From Haloarcula sp. DT43 (lineage in GTDB: Archaea > Halobacteriota > Halobacteria > Halobacteriales > Haloarculaceae): 64,000 bases of DNA. Position 1 is the first letter of the stretch; each line of letters opens with the position of its first letter. The DNA is taken from positions 496,001 to 560,000 of the forward strand of contig NZ_JAYMGZ010000004.1 of assembly GCF_037078405.1 (NCBI RefSeq). The letters are read 5' to 3'. Both the position numbers and the translations under genes were made by a program. Positions 38,546 through 47,315 of the stretch are shown here, piece by piece. A model generated the notes under the pieces. It searched no databases. It saw nothing but the letters and a program-made list of their open reading frames with translations, and was not told the origin of the DNA.

Positions 38546-39118
38546 ATGCAGGTTCACAGATTCGAAAAGGTTTGGCTCGGGGCAGCGATACTGCTCATCG
38601 TCGGTTTCATCGCCACCATCGCGTACGGCTCGGTCGGCGTCGGTGTCGGGATGGTCGACGACTCGGGCGGACAGATAAGCGCGCAGGCGGTTCAGAACGG
38701 GAACACCGGGACACAGTTCGACGACCCCGGCGTGTACCAGGAGAGCGAGGACCACTACGTCGTCTACGTCGTCGCTCGACAGTTCCAGTTCGTGCCCGGC
38801 AGCGGTGACACGCCGATTCGCGTGCCCGCGGGCGCGAACGTGACGTTCAGAGTGACCAGTGCAGACGTGACACACGGGTTCTCCGTGGTCGAGACCAACA
38901 TCAACACGATGGTCATTCCGGGCCAGGTCTCGGAGGTCTCGGCCCGGTTCAACGAGCCCGGGACGTACGGGCTCGTCTGTCACGAATACTGCGGTGCGGC
39001 CCATCACACGATGGGCGGCTCCGTCGAAGTCGTCCCGCCGGAGGAGTACGATATGCAGCAAGAGAACATCGACCAGTCCGCGGCTGACGCACAGGCGGGG
39101 GAGGAGGCGGATAACTGA
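38546..39118 (+). CDS. cbaB: cytochrome c oxidase subunit II (CuA), ba3 type
   Basis: A 190-residue protein with one N-terminal membrane helix (residues 9-32) and a periplasm-like cupredoxin domain. The binuclear CuA ligands are complete: His in 'ADVTHGFSV' and the cluster CHEYCGAAHHTM, that is Cys, Glu carbonyl, Cys, His and Met at the usual spacings. The single helix matches the Thermus and haloarchaeal ba3 class. Its TGA overlaps the ATG of subunit I (39118). The acidic C-terminus is a halophile trait. Confidence 0.95.
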   Translation: MQVHRFEKVWLGAAILLIVGFIATIAYGSVGVGVGMVDDSGGQISAQAVQNGNTGTQFDDPGVYQESEDHYVVYVVARQFQFVPGSGDTPIRVPAGANVTFRVTSADVTHGFSVVETNINTMVIPGQVSEVSARFNEPGTYGLVCHEYCGAAHHTMGGSVEVVPPEEYDMQQENIDQSAADAQAGEEADN

Positions 39119-40806
39119 TGGTGTTCGTCGACTCCTACCCGAAAACGTCGAAGATAGTCCGTAGCGAGTTCATCGTGGCGTTCGTCGCCCTCGGAATCGG
39201 TGCGCTCTTTGGCGTCGTCCAGGCGCTGCACCGCACCGGCGTGTTCCGCGGGTTCGTCAGCTCGGCGGACTACTACACGATTCTGACCGGCCACGGCGTC
39301 CTGCTGGCGCTCGTGTTCACCACGTTCTTCATCTCGGGGCTGTTCACGTGGGCCGTCGCCAACAGCCTCGAACGCGAGCTCCCGCACCGCATCGCCTGGT
39401 CGGCCTTCTGGATAATGCTCACGGGGACGGTGCTCGCGGCCGTGTCCATCATCGGCGGCATCGCCGGTTCGCCGTCGATTCTGGGGCACGACCTCGAAGC
39501 CGACGTGCTCTTTACCTTCTACGCGCCGATGAAGGCCCACCCCGCGTTCTACATCGGGGCCGCGCTCATCATCGTCGGCTCCTGGATAGGGGGCGCGGCG
39601 TACTTCAAGGCGCTGTGGGAGTGGCGCGAGGACAACCCCGACGAGCGCATCCCGCTGCAGACGTTCATGGTGCTGACGACGATGCTGATGTGGTACATCT
39701 CCACCATCGGCGTCGCCGTTGAGGTCGTCGCCTTCCTCATCCCGTGGTCGCTCGGGCTCATCCAGAACGTCGACCCGCTGCTGACCCGGACGCTGTTCTG
39801 GTACTTCGGCCACCCGGTCGTGTACTTCTGGCTCATGCCGGCGTACCTCGTCTGGTACACGATTCTGCCGAAGCTGGCCGGCGGCCGGCTGTTCAGTGAC
39901 CCGCTGGCCCGCGTCGTGTTCGTCGCGTTCCTGCTGCTGTCGACCCCGGTCGGCTTCCACCACCAGTACACCGACCCCGGCATCCCGTCGGGCTACAAGT
40001 TCATCGCGATGACGAACACGATGTTCCTGCTGTTGCCCTCGCTGTTGACTGCGTTCACCGTGGTCGCCTCGGTCGAGCACGGCGCTCGTCAGCGGGGCGC
40101 GAGCGGCTACCTCTCCTGGCTGCGGGACCTGCCCTGGGACAAGCCGGCCTTCTCGGGCTGTATGCTCGCCGGCCTGATGTTCGCCGCCGGCGGCTTCTCC
40201 GGCATGATAAACGCCGGGATGAACATCAACTACCTCATCCACAACACCATCTGGGTGCCCGGCCACTTCCACCTCACCGTCGGGACCGCGTTCGCGCTGA
40301 CGGCGATGGCCATCAGCTACTGGCTGGTCCCACAGATTACCGGGAAGAAGCTCCGCCAGCGCGGCCTCGCCGTGTTCCAGCCTTACGTCTGGTTCGTGGG
40401 CATGGCGGTGATGTCCAACGCCATGCACCGCGCGGGCCTGGCCGGCATCCCGCGGCGGACCGCCGAACCCACCTACGACGAGTTCGCGTTCGAGGGCGTC
40501 GCCGGAACGGTCGGCGAGATGCGCCTCCAGATAGCTATCGGCGGCTTCCTGCTGTTCGTCGGCGCGGTGATGTTCCTCGTCGTCATGGCCGACACCCTGC
40601 TCGCCCGCCGGGGCGGGACACTATCGGTCAACAGCAACATCCCCGAGCCGCTGTCCGGGCCGGACCACAGCCCCCGCATCCTGGACAACTACAAGCTCTG
40701 GACGGCTATCGCCCTGCTGCTCATCGTCATCGCCTACGGGCCGCCGCTCGCCAGCATGGTCGCTGACGGGCTGCTCGCGCCCGGTAGTCCGCCGATTCCG
40801 GTCTAA
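39118..40806 (+). CDS. cbaA: cytochrome c oxidase subunit I, ba3 type
   Basis: A 562-residue heme-copper oxidase subunit with about 13 membrane helices. The metal ligands can be seen: the low-spin heme His in 'ILTGHGVLLALVF', the CuB His cross-linked to Tyr in 'FGHPVVYFWLMPAYLVWY', the CuB pair in 'FHHQYTDPG', and the two heme His residues in 'PGHFHLTVGTAFALT'. The HPVVY motif and lack of a D-channel pattern place it in the B (ba3) class. It reduces oxygen to water and pumps protons. Confidence 0.96.
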   Translation: MVFVDSYPKTSKIVRSEFIVAFVALGIGALFGVVQALHRTGVFRGFVSSADYYTILTGHGVLLALVFTTFFISGLFTWAVANSLERELPHRIAWSAFWIMLTGTVLAAVSIIGGIAGSPSILGHDLEADVLFTFYAPMKAHPAFYIGAALIIVGSWIGGAAYFKALWEWREDNPDERIPLQTFMVLTTMLMWYISTIGVAVEVVAFLIPWSLGLIQNVDPLLTRTLFWYFGHPVVYFWLMPAYLVWYTILPKLAGGRLFSDPLARVVFVAFLLLSTPVGFHHQYTDPGIPSGYKFIAMTNTMFLLLPSLLTAFTVVASVEHGARQRGASGYLSWLRDLPWDKPAFSGCMLAGLMFAAGGFSGMINAGMNINYLIHNTIWVPGHFHLTVGTAFALTAMAISYWLVPQITGKKLRQRGLAVFQPYVWFVGMAVMSNAMHRAGLAGIPRRTAEPTYDEFAFEGVAGTVGEMRLQIAIGGFLLFVGAVMFLVVMADTLLARRGGTLSVNSNIPEPLSGPDHSPRILDNYKLWTAIALLLIVIAYGPPLASMVADGLLAPGSPPIPV

Positions 40807-40827
40807 CACGACTCCACTACACTCAGC

Positions 40828-41376
40828 ATGTTCGAAGACGTCGACGGTCCGGAGCAGAAAACGCTGCTACGCATCCTCATCATCGTCGGAATCGGTCTGC
40901 CCATCCTCATCGAGGTCGTGACCTTCGGGAGTCTGCTGGGCCATCACTTGGTGGGTGACCCCGGGGGCGAGGTGGTGCCCGAAACGCCGACCGCGGAGCC
41001 GGCCGGTGCCGGCGTCGGCGACCCGATTCTCGAGTCCTCGGCTGTCTCGGCCCGCATCGAGTCAGCGTCGGTGGTCACCGCGGACGAGGGGTGGCGGTTC
41101 ACGCTCGCGGTGAACGCGACCAACAGCGGGACCGAGCCGGCGGCGGTCCGGCTCGACAGCGTCACCGCCCGCAACGGGGAGACGGTCGACGGTACCGCGA
41201 GTACCGGCCAGCTGTCCGTGGGACAGACCGAGACCGTGACCAGGTCGTGGCTCCTGCCCCCCGGCGAACGGCCCGACACCGTCTCGATAACGGTGTTGGA
41301 GTATCCGGACGACGGAGAAACGCAGTCGACCCAGTACGACGTCACGCTGGGGGACATCCCCGTGTCGAACCGCTGA
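40828..41376 (+). CDS. single-helix extracytoplasmic protein at the end of the ba3 operon
   Basis: A 182-residue protein. After 12 polar residues comes one hydrophobic segment (about 16-38), then an outward domain rich in beta strands ('WRFTLAVNATNSGTEPAAVR', 'TETVTRSWLLPPGERPDTVS') that resembles CARDB/DUF11-like Ig folds. It follows cbaA by 21 nt and is likely part of the same transcript, perhaps an accessory oxidase subunit. No metal-ligand motif is visible. It converges with the membrane zinc-ribbon gene; the two stops are a single base apart. Confidence 0.72.
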   Translation: MFEDVDGPEQKTLLRILIIVGIGLPILIEVVTFGSLLGHHLVGDPGGEVVPETPTAEPAGAGVGDPILESSAVSARIESASVVTADEGWRFTLAVNATNSGTEPAAVRLDSVTARNGETVDGTASTGQLSVGQTETVTRSWLLPPGERPDTVSITVLEYPDDGETQSTQYDVTLGDIPVSNR

Positions 41377-41377
41377 C

Positions 41378-42601
41378 TCACCCGCCGACGGGGGTGCCAC
41401 AGGACGGGCAGGCGTCAGCATCGGACGGGAGCGACTCGCCACACTCGCTGCAGTAAGACATCCCAGTGTCGCGTTTTTCGGGCGTGAAGACGGCCGTATC
41501 GTCCAGCCACGCCCCGTCGGTGGCCTCCGGGTCCGGTTCCGACTCGCTGTCCGGTGTCGCTTCCGACCCGGTGGCAGCATCCGACGACCCCGCCGAGTCG
41601 GTGGCGGGCGGGCTCGTCCGGGCGACCTCCTCGGGCGAGAACACCCGCGTCCCGGTGTGGCCCGGTTTGTCCGCATCGCTCTCTGTAGCTACGGTATCGC
41701 TCCCGCTCTCGGGGTGGTCCCGAGACGCCGGTTCGGACTCGCCACTCCGTTCGGAGTTCGCGTCGCCGTCTCGCGGCCCGGCGGCCGGCGGCATGACGGG
41801 AAACCGCTGGTCCGGGCGGCGCTGTGGGTTGGCAAGCGGCGCACGGAGCCTGACGACGGCCCCGGCCAGTAGTTGCGCCAGGAGGTACACGCTCGCCAGC
41901 ACGCCGGGACCGGCGACGAAAACCGTGGTGGCTCGGGCCGGCCCAACGGTCGTCAGCCGGAGCACCGTTTCGGCCACGGGACCGACGCCGGCCCGCGTCA
42001 ACCAAGGGGATAGCGTCGACGGGACGCCGGACGCGCCGGCCGCCGCGACCAGCCAGTACGTAGCGAAAGAGAGCGCGGTCACGAAGACCAGGAACGAAAA
42101 GAGCGGCGGATACGAGAGCGTGTACACGCGGTGCCCGTAGGCGACGGTCCGGACGACCAGATGCGCCGTCCCGAACAGCGCAAGCGCCGTGAGCGGCCGC
42201 GGCTGGCCGAGCGTGACACCGAGCAGGAGACAGCCGACGAGGACGCACCCGGGGAGCGCCAGCAACAGGCTCGGGTGGTCGAACCGGTACGCGTCGACGA
42301 GGTTGCCGTAGCCGTTCCGGAGCCGTCGGTTGACGAGCGCGACGGCCGCCAGCGACGGCACGACGAGCCAGAGCCCGGCGGCGAGCACGGTGCGAAGTGA
42401 GACCGAACGGTCAGCGAGCGTCGCGAGGACAGTGCGTTCGAGCGCCGGGAACCGCGCTACCAGGACCCCGGTCGCGAGCACCCAGCCACCGTAGGCGACC
42501 CACGCCAGGGCCACGCCGACGAACAGCCAGGTTTCGGCCCGCAGTAGCGTGACGGACTCGCGGAGTTCCGACCGTAATCGACCACGCGCCATCGGCCCCA
42601 T
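41378..42601 (-). CDS. multi-pass membrane protein with acidic linker and C-terminal zinc ribbon
   Basis: A 407-residue protein. The first 255 residues hold about six hydrophobic segments. A Ser/Asp/Glu-rich linker follows (about 270-370) with two similar motifs, 'TRVFSPEEVART' and 'DTAVFTPEKRDTG'. The end is a zinc ribbon, CSEC...CPSC. The motifs could be phosphorylated and bound by FHA domains encoded next door; that is inference. Started at ATG 42601, with ATG 42592 as an alternative. It follows the FHA/zinc-ribbon gene by 31 nt and seems part of the signalling island. Confidence 0.75.
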   Translation of the reverse strand: MGPMARGRLRSELRESVTLLRAETWLFVGVALAWVAYGGWVLATGVLVARFPALERTVLATLADRSVSLRTVLAAGLWLVVPSLAAVALVNRRLRNGYGNLVDAYRFDHPSLLLALPGCVLVGCLLLGVTLGQPRPLTALALFGTAHLVVRTVAYGHRVYTLSYPPLFSFLVFVTALSFATYWLVAAAGASGVPSTLSPWLTRAGVGPVAETVLRLTTVGPARATTVFVAGPGVLASVYLLAQLLAGAVVRLRAPLANPQRRPDQRFPVMPPAAGPRDGDANSERSGESEPASRDHPESGSDTVATESDADKPGHTGTRVFSPEEVARTSPPATDSAGSSDAATGSEATPDSESEPDPEATDGAWLDDTAVFTPEKRDTGMSYCSECGESLPSDADACPSCGTPVGG

Positions 42602-42632
42602 GTTTCCCGACCGACCGCTTAACTGTGGGTGG

Positions 42633-43577
42633 TCACGCCGCCCGGATAGTCAGCGTGGCGACGCCCGACAGTTCGAGTTCGTCGCCCGGCTGTATCGGTT
42701 CCCGGTCGCCCTTCTGCAGCAGGGTCCCGTTCAGCCGTGTCGGGTTGTCCCCGAGGTCGACGAGGTAGTACCCCTCCGGCTGGCGGTCGAACCGAACGTG
42801 TTCGCGGTGGATGCGGACCGCCTCGTCCTCCGGCCGCCCGGCGTCTAACAGCGCCGCCCTGATTTCCCGGCCGATTCTCGCCCCGTCTTCGACGGTGATG
42901 TCACGCCCCTCGACCGAGAGAACGAGCCCCTCCGGGGGCGTCGCGTCGCCCGTGGCCTGTGACACTGGCGCGTCGACGGCGTCGTCCGGTTCGGCCGTCG
43001 GCGATTCGGGACCCGAGTCAGCCGCCGCGGCCCCGCCTGCGTCGCGGTGGGCGTCCAGGTTCTCCCCGCAGTTGACACAGAAGCTGGCGTCGTCGTCGAC
43101 CGCAGTGTCACAGGACGGGCACGCGTCGAGCGCCCCCTCCTCGCCAGGCGTAACGTCCTGTACGTCGGTGCCGCAGTCGATACAGAAGTTCGCGTCGGCG
43201 TCGAGTTCCCGGTCGCAGTCCGGGCAGGTAATCGTCGCCGGCTCGTCGTCGGCCGGTGCATCGGCGTCGTCGTCCTCGTCGGCCGGTTCGGCGTCGGTTT
43301 CTGCCGCCTGCCCCGTCTCCGCCGCGTCGTCGGCCTCGACCGCCCCGATGCCCGAATCCCCGTCCGCTGCCGGTTCGTCGTTCCCGGCCGCCCCCGCCGT
43401 CTCGTCGGCCTCCGCTGCCAGCAGGTCGGCGTCGCCCGACTCCCCGTCGTCGGTGGCAGCCCGGTCGGTGTGCTGCCACTCACCGCAATCCGGGTTCGTA
43501 CACCAGCCGCCGGCGACCGTCGGGTCGAAGTCCTCGTCGCAGATGGGGCAGTTTACCGTGCGGTCGGATTCAGGCAT
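42633..43577 (-). CDS. FHA-domain protein with several zinc ribbons
   Basis: A 314-residue protein. The N-terminus has a zinc site (CPIC...CTNPDC), and two more ribbons follow near residues 115-135 (CPDC...CIDC) and 150-170 (CPSC...CVNC), separated by very acidic linkers. The last 100 residues form a forkhead-associated domain ('DGARIGREIRAALLDAG', 'IHREHVRFDRQPEGYYLVDL', 'NPTRLNGTLLQKGD'), with the Arg, His-Arg-x-His and Asn residues of a phosphothreonine pocket. It should dock to phosphoproteins made by the neighbouring kinase. It has its own promoter. Confidence 0.88.
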   Translation of the reverse strand: MPESDRTVNCPICDEDFDPTVAGGWCTNPDCGEWQHTDRAATDDGESGDADLLAAEADETAGAAGNDEPAADGDSGIGAVEADDAAETGQAAETDAEPADEDDDADAPADDEPATITCPDCDRELDADANFCIDCGTDVQDVTPGEEGALDACPSCDTAVDDDASFCVNCGENLDAHRDAGGAAAADSGPESPTAEPDDAVDAPVSQATGDATPPEGLVLSVEGRDITVEDGARIGREIRAALLDAGRPEDEAVRIHREHVRFDRQPEGYYLVDLGDNPTRLNGTLLQKGDREPIQPGDELELSGVATLTIRAA

Positions 43578-43594
43578 GAATTTCGTTAGGGAGT

Positions 43595-43620
43595 ATAGAG
43601 TCGAGAAATAAAATACTTGC
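43595..43620 (-). promoter_or_regulatory. promoter of the FHA/zinc-ribbon gene
   Basis: The 60-nt gap after the phosphatase stop holds an AT-rich box (agtattttatttc on the minus strand, about 43603-43615) about 27-35 nt before ATG 43577. A GGGAAA half site, as in the operator-like repeat before the VWA gene, lies just upstream at about 43627-43633. Confidence 0.5.
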
Positions 43621-43637
43621 CCCGCGAAACTTTCCCG

Positions 43638-44807
43638 CTACTCGTCTGTCATGATGACCGTGTCCCGCTCGGAGATGTCGATGTCGGGGTCGATGTTCCG
43701 GACGGGCAGCCCGCCGTCATCCGGCGTTTCCGGGAGCGCGCTGTCGGCGAACAGGAGCACTGAGACGTTGTCCTTCCCGCCGCGGTCGTTCGCCAGCGAC
43801 ACGAGCGTCCGGCTCGCCGCGTCGAGCGACGGCGCATCGAGGACCGCGTCCCGGAGCTCGTCGTCGGTGACGGCTTCCTCGCGGATGCGCTCGGCCGCCT
43901 CGTCGGCGCGGTCCGTCTCGGCGTACTGTTCGTACAGTTCCGGAGCGTCAGTCTGGGCGTCGACGAGTCCGTCGCTGGTCGCAAGCACCGTGTCCTCGGC
44001 GTACAGCCGGACCGTCCGCGTGTCCACCTCGACGGTCGCGTCGTCGGGGTCCTCGTAGCCGGACCCGCCCAGCGCGCGCGTGATTTCGTTCCCGTTCGGG
44101 TGGACGTGGGCCTCGACGGGGTCGATTTCGCCGCTGTCGACCCACTCCTGGACGACGGCGTGGTCCCTGGTCAGCGGCGAAATCGTCTCGCGGGCCCCGT
44201 TGACAACGTAGGCCCGGCTGTCGCCGACCCAGCCGTAGTGGAGTTTCCCGTCGGCGTAGACCCCCGCGACGACCGTCGTGTACGATTGGGTGCCGGTCTC
44301 GTCGGCGTACCGGACGATGTCGCGATGGGCGGCGGTAATCGCCTCGGCCACGGCGGCTTCGAGGTCCTGCTCGCCGGGCGGGTCCGGGAGCACGTCACGG
44401 GCCACGTCCACGTCGAAGCCGCCGGGGTAGCTCCGGGCCGCTCGAATCGCCACGGGCGCGAGCCGTTCGGCGACGGTCGTGGTCGCGATGTAGGACGCGA
44501 CGTCGCCGGCGTCGTGACCGCCGGCACCGTCGGCAACGACGAACACGCCGGCCGAGCGGTTCATCGGCCGCCCGTCGCTGTCGGCGTCGGACACGTCCGC
44601 CTCGTCGTCGGCCCCAGTATCGACCGGGTCGTCGGCCCCAGTATCGACCGGGTCGCCGCCCTCCGCCGTGGCCGGTGCCGCCGGCCTGTCCTGCCCGCGG
44701 TAGCCGTCGCGGTGGCCTTCCTCGAACACCGTGAGTGAGACGCTGTCCTCGTTGATGCCCTGTCCTCGCTTCCGGTCGCCGATGTCGTAGTTCGTGCTGT
44801 ATCTCAT
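43638..44807 (-). CDS. PP2C-family protein serine/threonine phosphatase
   Basis: A 389-residue phosphatase. The metal-binding and catalytic motifs are intact: 'GQGINEDSVSLTVF' (NED), 'FVVADGAGGHDAGDVAS' (DGxGGH), 'HYGWVGDSRAYVV' (GDSR), 'LATSDGLVDAQ' (SDG) and 'RGGKDNVSVLLF' (DN). Between the first two lies an acidic insertion with a perfect 8-codon tandem repeat. It should remove phosphates placed by the kinase encoded next to it; the kinase stop and phosphatase start overlap by 4 nt. Confidence 0.93.
   Translation of the reverse strand: MRYSTNYDIGDRKRGQGINEDSVSLTVFEEGHRDGYRGQDRPAAPATAEGGDPVDTGADDPVDTGADDEADVSDADSDGRPMNRSAGVFVVADGAGGHDAGDVASYIATTTVAERLAPVAIRAARSYPGGFDVDVARDVLPDPPGEQDLEAAVAEAITAAHRDIVRYADETGTQSYTTVVAGVYADGKLHYGWVGDSRAYVVNGARETISPLTRDHAVVQEWVDSGEIDPVEAHVHPNGNEITRALGGSGYEDPDDATVEVDTRTVRLYAEDTVLATSDGLVDAQTDAPELYEQYAETDRADEAAERIREEAVTDDELRDAVLDAPSLDAASRTLVSLANDRGGKDNVSVLLFADSALPETPDDGGLPVRNIDPDIDISERDTVIMTDE
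44607..44654 (-). repeat. perfect 24-bp tandem repeat in the phosphatase gene
   Basis: gtcggccccagtatcgaccg plus ggtc occurs at 44607-44630 and again at 44631-44654 without change. It encodes PVDTGADD twice in the acidic insertion. The exact identity suggests a recent slippage event and a possibly variable copy number. Confidence 0.9.
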
Positions 44808-46042
44808 GACTCCTCCGGATGGAACTCGAAGGTGACCCCGTAGGTCGGATGGACGAGCGACACCAGGTCGCCGTCCGTGAGCGTGACCGACTCGGGCGGA
44901 ACCGCCCCGTGTCTGTCGGTCGGGTCCTCGCCCTCGGAGCGGAGGCGCTCGCGCCCGGCGGCGGAGAGGACCCGCTGCCAGCCGGCCCCTTTCTGGACGA
45001 ACGTCCCGTTGAGGCTCCGGTCGCGGAGGGCCCAGTCACCGCCCTCGATTTCGAACTGCACCTGGACCGACGAGATGTACTCCCCCTGGGGGTCCGCTAT
45101 CGCTATCGACGCCGGCGGACCGCTCGCGCCCCGTCGGCCGATTGTGTCGCCCGGTTCGACGGTGAACCGCCTGTCGGCCTGGATGTAAGTCACCGACGCC
45201 GTCGCGGGCGGCGTGGGGTCCCGCCGTTCGAGGACCTCCTTGAGGACCGTCGCGTTCCGGTACCGGTCGCGATAGTGCGTCTGGGTGGCCCGCTCGACGA
45301 TGTCGGCCAGGTAGTCGTCGCAGTCGGCCCCGAACGCCTGTGGGTTCACGCCGTCTTTCTTCGGGACGCTCCCCTTGAGCAGGAACAGGAGTATCTTCCC
45401 GATGGAGTACACGTCCGACCACGGCCCCTGGCGAACGTCCGTCCGGCTGGCCTCCGCGACCTCGCGGGGCTTGAACGGCCCCAGAATCGTCGTCCCGCTG
45501 TTCCCGGATGCGGGGTCGCCGCTTGCGTCGAAGCCGGTCGCCGTGTTGAAGTCGATGAGCGTGGGCGTGATGTCGGGCGTGAGCATCACGTTCTCCGGCT
45601 TCAGGTCGCGGTAGACGATTTCGTTCTCGTGGAGAAAGCCCATCGCGTCCGAGAGATCGATGCCTATCTGGCGGACCTGCTCGCTGTCCTCGATGGGGCC
45701 GTGCCGGTCGATGACCCCGTCGAGTTCGATGCCATCGACTATCAGCTGGACGACCAGGAACGGAACGTCCCGCTCCGTGACCCGGTCGTAGTAGTCCATC
45801 ACGTTCTCGTGGCCGCCGGCTCGGCGGATGCGCTCCAGGGACTGCCCCTCCTTCTCGAAGTACTCCTCGATGATGTCGGGGTCGTTCTGGGATTCGGTGT
45901 AGTTGGGGTACTTGACGGCGACGGACGCCCCGGTCTCGATGTCTCTGGCGCGGAAGGCCTTCGCGAACCCCCCCTTGCCGAGGAACTCGCCGAGTTCGTA
46001 CCGGCCGGCGACGATGTCACCGCTCTCGGGTTCCCAGGGCAT
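44804..46042 (-). CDS. eukaryotic-type Ser/Thr protein kinase with C-terminal FHA domain
   Basis: A 412-residue kinase. Residues 1-280 form the kinase domain: glycine loop 'LGEFLGKGGFAKAF', catalytic Lys in 'SVAVKYPNY', and catalytic loop 'IVYRDLKPENVML'. The usual HRD is YRD and the usual DFG is DFN ('TLIDFNTATG'), so it is atypical but keeps Lys, Asp and Asn. The C-terminal 120 residues look like an FHA domain ('FTVEPGDTIGRRGASGPPA', 'DWALRDRSLNGTFVQKGAGW'). No membrane segment. It sits between the VWA gene (35 nt upstream) and the PP2C gene (4-nt overlap). Confidence 0.92.
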   Translation of the reverse strand: MPWEPESGDIVAGRYELGEFLGKGGFAKAFRARDIETGASVAVKYPNYTESQNDPDIIEEYFEKEGQSLERIRRAGGHENVMDYYDRVTERDVPFLVVQLIVDGIELDGVIDRHGPIEDSEQVRQIGIDLSDAMGFLHENEIVYRDLKPENVMLTPDITPTLIDFNTATGFDASGDPASGNSGTTILGPFKPREVAEASRTDVRQGPWSDVYSIGKILLFLLKGSVPKKDGVNPQAFGADCDDYLADIVERATQTHYRDRYRNATVLKEVLERRDPTPPATASVTYIQADRRFTVEPGDTIGRRGASGPPASIAIADPQGEYISSVQVQFEIEGGDWALRDRSLNGTFVQKGAGWQRVLSAAGRERLRSEGEDPTDRHGAVPPESVTLTDGDLVSLVHPTYGVTFEFHPEES

Positions 46043-46077
46043 GCGTCACCCGGCTCTCCGGCCCGCGACGCCGCGAG

Positions 46078-47262
46078 TCACTTCTGGATGCCCTCGTCTG
46101 TGACGATTTTCGTCGCGTCGTTCTGTTCCTTGCGCCCGCCCTCCATCACGATACGGGTCTCCCGTTCGGCCGTCTGGACGGCCTCGGTGTCCTCGCCGTG
46201 GACGCGGGTCATCCGCTCCAGTTGGGTCTGTGCTTCGGCGACGTTGCCCTTGCCGAGTTCCGTCTTGATGACGGTCTGCCGGTGGTCCAGGTCGACCTGT
46301 TCGTTGTGCGCGGCCAGTTTCGACTCGTCCTCGGTGTAGTCGACGGTGATGGCCCCGCGGGTCGTCTCGCCCCCGGCGGTCAGCGTGACCTCGGCCAGCG
46401 AGACCGAGTCCGCGACGTCGTGAGACGGTGCGTGAACCTTCAGCACGACCCGCTGGGTTTCCCGGTCGAGCAAGTCGGGCAGCGGCACGACGGCCGCGTT
46501 GTCCTCCCAGTCGGGTTCGACGGACTGGGTCTGTGGGAGCGAGCGGTACACCTCGCTGACCTCGACGCCGTCGGCCACGTCGAGTTCGATCCTGGCGTCC
46601 GGGGCGACGACCGTCCCGGCCTCCTCGACCGCGTCGCCGAAGAACGACTCGATGTCACCCGCAGCCTCCAAGTGGGTCCACTCGCCGCGGGCGACGGTGC
46701 CGAGCGTCCGGATGGTCTCCTCGCGGTAGTCGCTCCCGATGCCGGCCGCTTTGATTCGGATGCCCTCGCTGTCGATTTCGCGGGCCAGCGTCCCGAACGC
46801 CCCCGGGTCGTGGGAGTTGTCCTTCCCGTCGGAGAGCAGCAGGACTCGCCGGGCCGTGGCGTCGTCGCTCGGGAGGCCCTGTAGCGACGCCTTCGCCTCC
46901 AGGAGGCCGCTGTACATGTCGGTGCCCCCGCCGGCGGAGATGTCGGCGACCGCGTCCACTGCCGCCTCGCGACCGACAGCCCCCCACCGCGTCGGCTCCA
47001 GCACCGTCGTGACCTCGTTGTCGAAGGCGATTATCGAGACGTAGTCGTCCGCTTCGAGCAGTCCGAACACCCACTCCGCGCCGGCGCGTGCCTGCTCGAT
47101 GTCGTCGCCGGCCATCGACCCGCTGGCGTCGATACAGAGGGCTATCTGTCGCGTGGGACGGTCCTCCAACCGCCCGGGTTCGACTTCGATTTCGGCGGTC
47201 AGTTTCGCCCCGCCCGTCGGCACGTACGGTCGGTTGACCTCGGTCACGACAGTAGCGGTCAT
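46078..47262 (-). CDS. VWA-domain protein (TerY-like) heading the kinase-phosphatase operon
   Basis: A 394-residue protein. A short beta-rich N-terminus precedes a von Willebrand A domain with an intact metal site: 'CIDASGSMAGDDIEQA' (DxSxS), Thr in 'GGGTDMYSGLLEAK' and 'VLLLSDGKDN'. The C-terminal part is a beta domain ('RVVLKVHAPSHDVADSVSLA') and a long charged helix. Layout VWA, kinase, PP2C matches the TerY-P triad described in bacteria. The start ATG 47262 stands about 26 nt after a TATA-like box, so it begins the operon. Confidence 0.9.
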   Translation of the reverse strand: MTATVVTEVNRPYVPTGGAKLTAEIEVEPGRLEDRPTRQIALCIDASGSMAGDDIEQARAGAEWVFGLLEADDYVSIIAFDNEVTTVLEPTRWGAVGREAAVDAVADISAGGGTDMYSGLLEAKASLQGLPSDDATARRVLLLSDGKDNSHDPGAFGTLAREIDSEGIRIKAAGIGSDYREETIRTLGTVARGEWTHLEAAGDIESFFGDAVEEAGTVVAPDARIELDVADGVEVSEVYRSLPQTQSVEPDWEDNAAVVPLPDLLDRETQRVVLKVHAPSHDVADSVSLAEVTLTAGGETTRGAITVDYTEDESKLAAHNEQVDLDHRQTVIKTELGKGNVAEAQTQLERMTRVHGEDTEAVQTAERETRIVMEGGRKEQNDATKIVTDEGIQK

Positions 47263-47283
47263 ACTGATAGTTGGGTCGTAGGA

Positions 47284-47315
47284 AGTAATTATATGTTTCC
47301 CTCAAATCTGGGAAA
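47284..47315 (-). promoter_or_regulatory. promoter with operator-like inverted repeat before the VWA-kinase-phosphatase operon
   Basis: On the minus strand the TATA-like catataatta (47286-47295) lies about 25-30 nt before ATG 47262. Directly upstream, where TFB's BRE and activators or repressors act, is a perfect inverted repeat TTTCCC-N8-GGGAAA (47296-47301 and 47310-47315). Such a placement suits a DNA-binding regulator that controls access of TFB; the regulator is unknown. Confidence 0.5.

Follow-up and report, generated by a model that had tools for sequence, protein, structure and literature searches.

A cassette of five adjacent minus-strand genes, at 41378-47262 of the 64,000-nucleotide stretch of Haloarcula sp. 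DT43 DNA analysed here (the window), probably encodes an ArnA/ArnB-like phospho-threonine switch of haloarchaea that comes with its own kinase and phosphatase. The genes encode, in order, a VWA protein, a Ser/Thr kinase with an FHA tail, a PP2C-type phosphatase, a zinc-ribbon/FHA adaptor (ZnR-FHA), and a membrane protein with a C-terminal zinc ribbon. These five genes and their order had been given by a first-pass annotation made from the DNA letters, and they are borne out by the open reading frames (ORFs), each at its expected coordinates, by Pfam, and by a codon-usage gene caller (trained partly on these five), which selects the identical ORFs. The cassette has recognisable domains with intact active sites, a conserved gene order, an ArnB fold over the whole length of its VWA protein, and a recurring threonine tag linked to it. 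In the switch we propose, the kinase would phosphorylate the Thr of a tail motif, T-x-[VI]-[FY/hydrophobic], on the VWA protein, PP2C, and the membrane protein; PP2C would strip the phosphate from this motif; and the FHA domains of the kinase and of the adaptor would bind the phosphorylated tails. The adaptor and the VWA hub would then come together on tagged clients, the membrane protein among them, and dephosphorylation would lead to disassembly, while the zinc ribbons of adaptor and clients would probably add a weaker, phosphate-independent contact, as the ArnA zinc finger does with ArnB. We infer both this assembly cycle and the role of the tag as phosphosite and FHA ligand.

The VWA protein (394 amino acids, 46078..47262, minus strand, as are all features of the cassette located below) has a Pfam VWA domain (51.8 bits), and its metal ion-dependent adhesion site (MIDAS) is complete, as first annotated, with D45, S47, S49, T114, and D145 invariant in 31 VWA sequences. 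Its AlphaFold model (pLDDT 90, pTM 0.87) comprises the VWA domain, a beta-sandwich, and C-terminal helices, followed by a short tail. The best solved-structure matches of this model were 4fx5 of Catenulispora (Z 35.9), ArnB 8s05 (Z 33.3), and vWA2 5a8j (Z 28.9), with the next at 23.9; 351 residues aligned with 8s05 (root-mean-square deviation 3.1), which is nearly the full length, and the match to 5a8j is likewise nearly full length. The top PDB match by sequence is also ArnB (E 1.5e-8). ArnA/ArnB of Sulfolobus is a characterised switch made of a zinc finger-FHA protein and a VWA protein, driven by Ser/Thr kinase and opposed by PP2A (PMC6509490; PMC12852372), in which ArnA binds phosphorylated ArnB via the FHA domain and unphosphorylated ArnB via the zinc finger (PMC12852372). 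The earlier remark that such a combination has no described function in archaea overlooks this pair.

The closest known system is ArnA/ArnB, rather than TerY-P, because the VWA protein has the whole-length three-domain ArnB architecture and Pfam finds no TerY_C in it (at E up to 1); the region where TerY_C would sit is modelled as beta-sandwich and helices. The first-pass annotation had equated the first three genes with the TerY-P triad, and this stands insofar as both have a VWA, a Ser/Thr kinase, and a PP2C gene side by side; the missing TerY_C and the better-matching ArnB-type fold speak against it, as does the FHA tail on the kinase. It is unlikely, in our judgment, that the cassette is a TerY-P-type triad in an archaeon, that is, a module for stress or conflict responses of the sort deduced from bacterial genomes, to which the FHA and membrane genes would be local additions. 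In conflict systems, a kinase is indeed adjoined by PP2C and stand-alone vWA genes (PMC7159879), and tagged proteins of another genome of the family, G082, bear beta-propeller, HEAT, and pentapeptide domains, as that explanation would have it. However, the ArnB fold spans the whole protein and is not a stand-alone VWA, the FHA and membrane partners stay beside the triad in most genera, and among the PADLOC anti-phage kinase systems only the generic kinase domain of the cassette found a match, the other four proteins finding none. Bacterial relatives of the full cassette were not found either: among 75 bacterial loci with kinase relatives, PP2C occurs in five, a ZnR-FHA match in one, and a VWA match in none. 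Literature searches on TerY together with haloarchaea returned nothing relevant.

The likeness to ArnA/ArnB extends to the zinc finger plus FHA adaptor, to the partner built of VWA, beta-sandwich, and helix bundle, to phosphorylation by Ser/Thr kinase (predicted for the cassette), and to archaeal occurrence. In contrast to ArnA, the adaptor has a ribbon that is not of the RanBP2 type; the cassette encodes its own kinase and phosphatase, the kinase bears an FHA domain, and a tagged membrane partner is present. The phosphatase is a PP2C, whereas that of Sulfolobus is a PP2A, and the candidate phosphosite is a tail motif, whereas the mapped sites of ArnB are bundle threonines. We do not claim membership in Arn as such, because the phosphatase class differs and the function is predicted only. 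The 2026 ArnAB paper lists Halorubrum among organisms with structurally related proteins, and its available passages describe no haloarchaeal kinase cassette (PMC12852372); our literature searches found no paper describing a haloarchaeal kinase-client set. The ArnB-like fold and the ArnA-like domain order could also mean that the cassette is a direct counterpart of Arn that controls archaellum expression in haloarchaea, and archaellins occur in 40 of 41 cassette genomes vs 38 of 55 cassette-less ones (near-complete genomes of the family). We doubt this explanation: the association is confounded by kinship, as most cassette genomes come from Haloarcula, many motile lineages are without the cassette, and the identified flanking genes are not archaellum genes. 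A link with motility is possible and weakly hinted at.

The catalytic residues of the kinase and of PP2C are nearly invariant. The Hanks-type kinase (412 amino acids, 44804..46042) scores 93.9 bits with Pkinase and 27.0 bits with the C-terminal FHA domain (PF00498; residues 300-358, 44969..45145), and a Pfam search of the genome of the window gave it as the sole Pkinase match above the curated cut-off. It is 92% identical to the kinase of H. sebkhae. Its K44, E65, D146, K148, N151, and D164 are kept in 51-52 of 52 sequences, the HRD Asp standing in a YRD context and the metal Asp in a DFN context, and R303, S324, and N345 of its FHA domain are kept in all 52, in agreement with the annotation as a Ser/Thr kinase with an FHA tail. 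PP2C (389 amino acids, 43638..44807) matches PP2C_2 with 46.5 bits and a Stp1-type model with 148.8 bits, under the cut-off of the latter; its metal-site Asp residues are kept in 47-49 of 49 sequences. The PP2C gene contains a tandem repeat (DPVDTGAD twice, window 44590-44650), and the length of PP2C is variable among Haloarcula relatives.

The ZnR-FHA adaptor (314 amino acids, 42633..43577), with its ArnA-like domain order, has a double zinc ribbon (DZR, 45.8 bits, residues 118-171) and an FHA domain (30.9 bits, residues 253-303). The three zinc ribbons that had been ascribed to it are present: Pfam calls two of them, and the third, an N-terminal CPIC...C...C, is read from the sequence. FHA residues Arg237 and Asn278 are kept. 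A six-frame genome search was insensitive to FHA and missed both FHA domains of the window.

The membrane protein (407 amino acids, 41378..42601) was predicted to be a membrane protein with a zinc ribbon, and the Pfam match, the model, and the invariant cysteines agree with this. Zn_Ribbon_1 matches its C-terminus with 26.2 bits (C384-C401, 41399..41452, adjoining the tag), with all four Cys invariant, and the AlphaFold model shows a helical part with six transmembrane segments and a long tail, disordered at residues 265-379; its fold had no PDB match with E under 0.001. Between these parts lies a hypervariable linker (mean top-residue share 31%), yet 22 sequences show no variation at T318 and V320, and R319 is kept in 95%. 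Two sites of the tag occur here, T318-R-V-F (41639..41650) and T369-A-V-F (41486..41497), and a DNA pattern for TxV[FY][ST]P[DE] finds, in the genome of the window, these two membrane-protein sites, one place with an in-frame stop, and no others. At two loci of Haloarcula rara (L083 and L073), the matches to the membrane protein and to DUF3179 are fragmented, with pieces that overlap or lie apart, which points to frameshifts or errors in the sequence.

The recurrence of T-x-[VI]-[FY], or close variants, in disordered tails is a new finding. T-x-[VI]-[FY] occurs in 45 of 46 membrane-protein linkers, with 1.2 expected, as a guide, from shuffles, and T-x-[VI]-hydrophobic is found within the last 20 residues of 44 of 47 VWA proteins (1.0 expected), at T384-K-I-V (46102..46113) in the window. 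In PP2C, Thr383 of the tail motif T383-V-I-M (43650..43661) is invariant in the alignment (49/49), and [DE]R[DEQ]T is present in 37 of the 49 tails (0.9 expected). In the FHA regulators GarA/OdhI of actinobacteria, phosphorylation takes place in ETTSVF (PMC8546545). The PknB/PknG-GarA/OdhI system resembles the cassette in having an FHA regulator, a PknB-like kinase, and a site that is similar in sequence to the candidate T-x-V-F; it differs in that motif and FHA domain are in one protein, whereas the cassette has the motif on separate clients, adjoining a zinc ribbon. One may ask whether the motif instead serves for docking without being phosphorylated, for instance by offering a zinc ribbon a site for beta-strand addition or by acting as ligand to the MIDAS of the VWA protein, with the kinase acting elsewhere, since it adjoins zinc ribbons in all clients and MIDAS sites bind acidic ligands, the linkers being acidic. 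This seems improbable to us: the Thr is the most conserved residue, the hydrophobic residues at +2/+3 are like those of the GarA/OdhI phosphosite, and the motif is also present in the tails of the VWA protein and PP2C, which have no zinc ribbon after it.

Several points weigh against the switch that we propose. The kinase has DFN in place of DFG, and in the ZnR-FHA of the clade to which the cassette belongs (type I), His replaces the canonical FHA Ser (IHREH), which is present in the paralogous type II ZnR-FHA. The motif in the PP2C tail is looser, with the hydrophobic form in 28 of 49. The shuffle counts take related sequences as independent, so that the expected values are a guide and not a p-value. 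The Sulfolobus kinase is of different architecture and the phosphatase of another class. The first-pass idea that the cassette writes, erases, reads, and anchors phospho-threonine gains from the conserved catalytic and ligand residues, the gene order, and the recurring Thr motif; phosphorylation and FHA binding are, for their part, predicted.

A kinase, a PP2C, and an FHA protein are also found together in the type VI secretion system (T6SS) set PpkA-PppA-Fha1, in which PpkA carries a VWA domain. The cassette differs in that no T6SS genes were seen with it, and its FHA match to TagH is weak, at 19.2 vs a cut-off of 120 bits.

A conserved neighbourhood in related genomes had been set beforehand as a test, and the gene order was found to be conserved. 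Relatives of the kinase occur in 57 of the 146 family genomes, including 29 of 32 Haloarcula genomes, and in nine genera; a sampling of 293 genomes from the order gave 39 with a relative (E up to 1e-60), and in a sample of the phylum, all 10 positives fall within the same order. Because so many genomes of the genus have the kinase, the term island, used in the first-pass annotation, is a poor fit for Haloarcula. The loci read keep the order VWA, kinase, PP2C, ZnR-FHA, membrane protein in Haloarcula and several other genera, and the flanks vary; at five loci (L032, L033, L047, L058, and L079) similarity recognises the first three cassette genes only. An apparent VWA-kinase gene fusion in one genus (g12; open frames of 790-860 amino acids) was rejected, as VWA and kinase lie in different frames and the length is an artefact of high GC.

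A second, rearranged type of cassette (type II) is found in other families and additionally in some genomes of Haloarculaceae. It consists of ZnR-FHA, VWA, kinase, and a PP2C of greater length, frequently joined by a second kinase. Most of these loci are adjoined by a membrane protein with a C-terminal zinc ribbon. T-x-[VI]-[FY] is present in all nine type II membrane proteins, which are remotely similar only (0.13 expected), and the tails of most type II VWA proteins read TTVV[YF]. The type II PP2C genes (L163:10275-11957 and others) encode 480-590 amino acids, and most show by eye an FHA-like C-terminal stretch (IGR...H...SSSGT), in L163 without a Pfam call.

The tag also appears on other proteins. 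Matches to a profile of tag plus zinc ribbon are more numerous and stronger in G082 than in cassette-less sister genomes. There, 15 of 21 C-terminal zinc-ribbon proteins have the motif in their last 80 residues (0.8 expected), a count weakened by the fact that the 21 include several related beta-propellers and were chosen partly via the tag profile; one further zinc-ribbon protein has the motif farther upstream. Among 20 zinc-ribbon ORFs sampled from cassette-less genomes none had the motif, a small control in which some ORFs are perhaps in wrong frames or have internal ribbons. Eleven of the 15 lie within a stretch of about 40 kb (L207-L209, G082:C1:2375001-2434997) that they share with three kinases, VWA, PP2C, and ZnR-FHA, and the other domains of the tagged proteins in this stretch include beta-propeller, HEAT, pentapeptide, double cold-shock, and DUF7343 (winged-helix-like by eye). 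It is quite possible, and we are more tentative here than about the cassette itself, that haloarchaea have a phospho-tag that is portable: a C-terminal zinc ribbon adjoined by an acidic tail in which T-x-[VI]-[FY] occurs once or twice. Such a tag would bring proteins with no relation to one another (membrane, beta-propeller, HEAT, pentapeptide, cold-shock, winged-helix, or EF-Tu-like) under a single kinase/PP2C pair and a single FHA/VWA hub. The GC fraction of the 40-kb stretch is 0.59-0.605 vs 0.55-0.68 at five other G082 loci. Outside the stretch, L211:5084-5968 (minus strand) encodes a protein with EF-Tu/eEF1A domains 2-3 and a C-terminal zinc ribbon, followed by ETRVYDP at the extreme end.

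Sulfolobus is the main source of what is known on phospho-dependent FHA/VWA switching in archaea; here one locus predicts writer, eraser, readers, and candidate clients to the level of single threonines. If the proposed switch is true, ArnA/ArnB would be one instance of a wider archaeal FHA/VWA switch, clients could be listed from sequence via the tag, and the wiring of an archaeal kinase pathway would become predictable and testable.

Within the cassette, the intergenic gaps are 35 bp between VWA and kinase, 60 bp between PP2C and ZnR-FHA, and 31 bp between ZnR-FHA and the membrane gene; the kinase and PP2C genes share 4 bp. Genes for haem-copper oxidase subunits II and I and for a small membrane-anchored protein (window 38546-41376) are convergent to the cassette and are present in only part of Haloarcula; a link with the cassette was considered and rejected, as the oxidase genes were not found beside it in other genera. 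By eye, TATA-like stretches, CATATAATTA and TATTTTATT, lie upstream of the VWA and ZnR-FHA genes (window 47270-47305 and 43580-43625, respectively), suggesting that two transcripts are possible.

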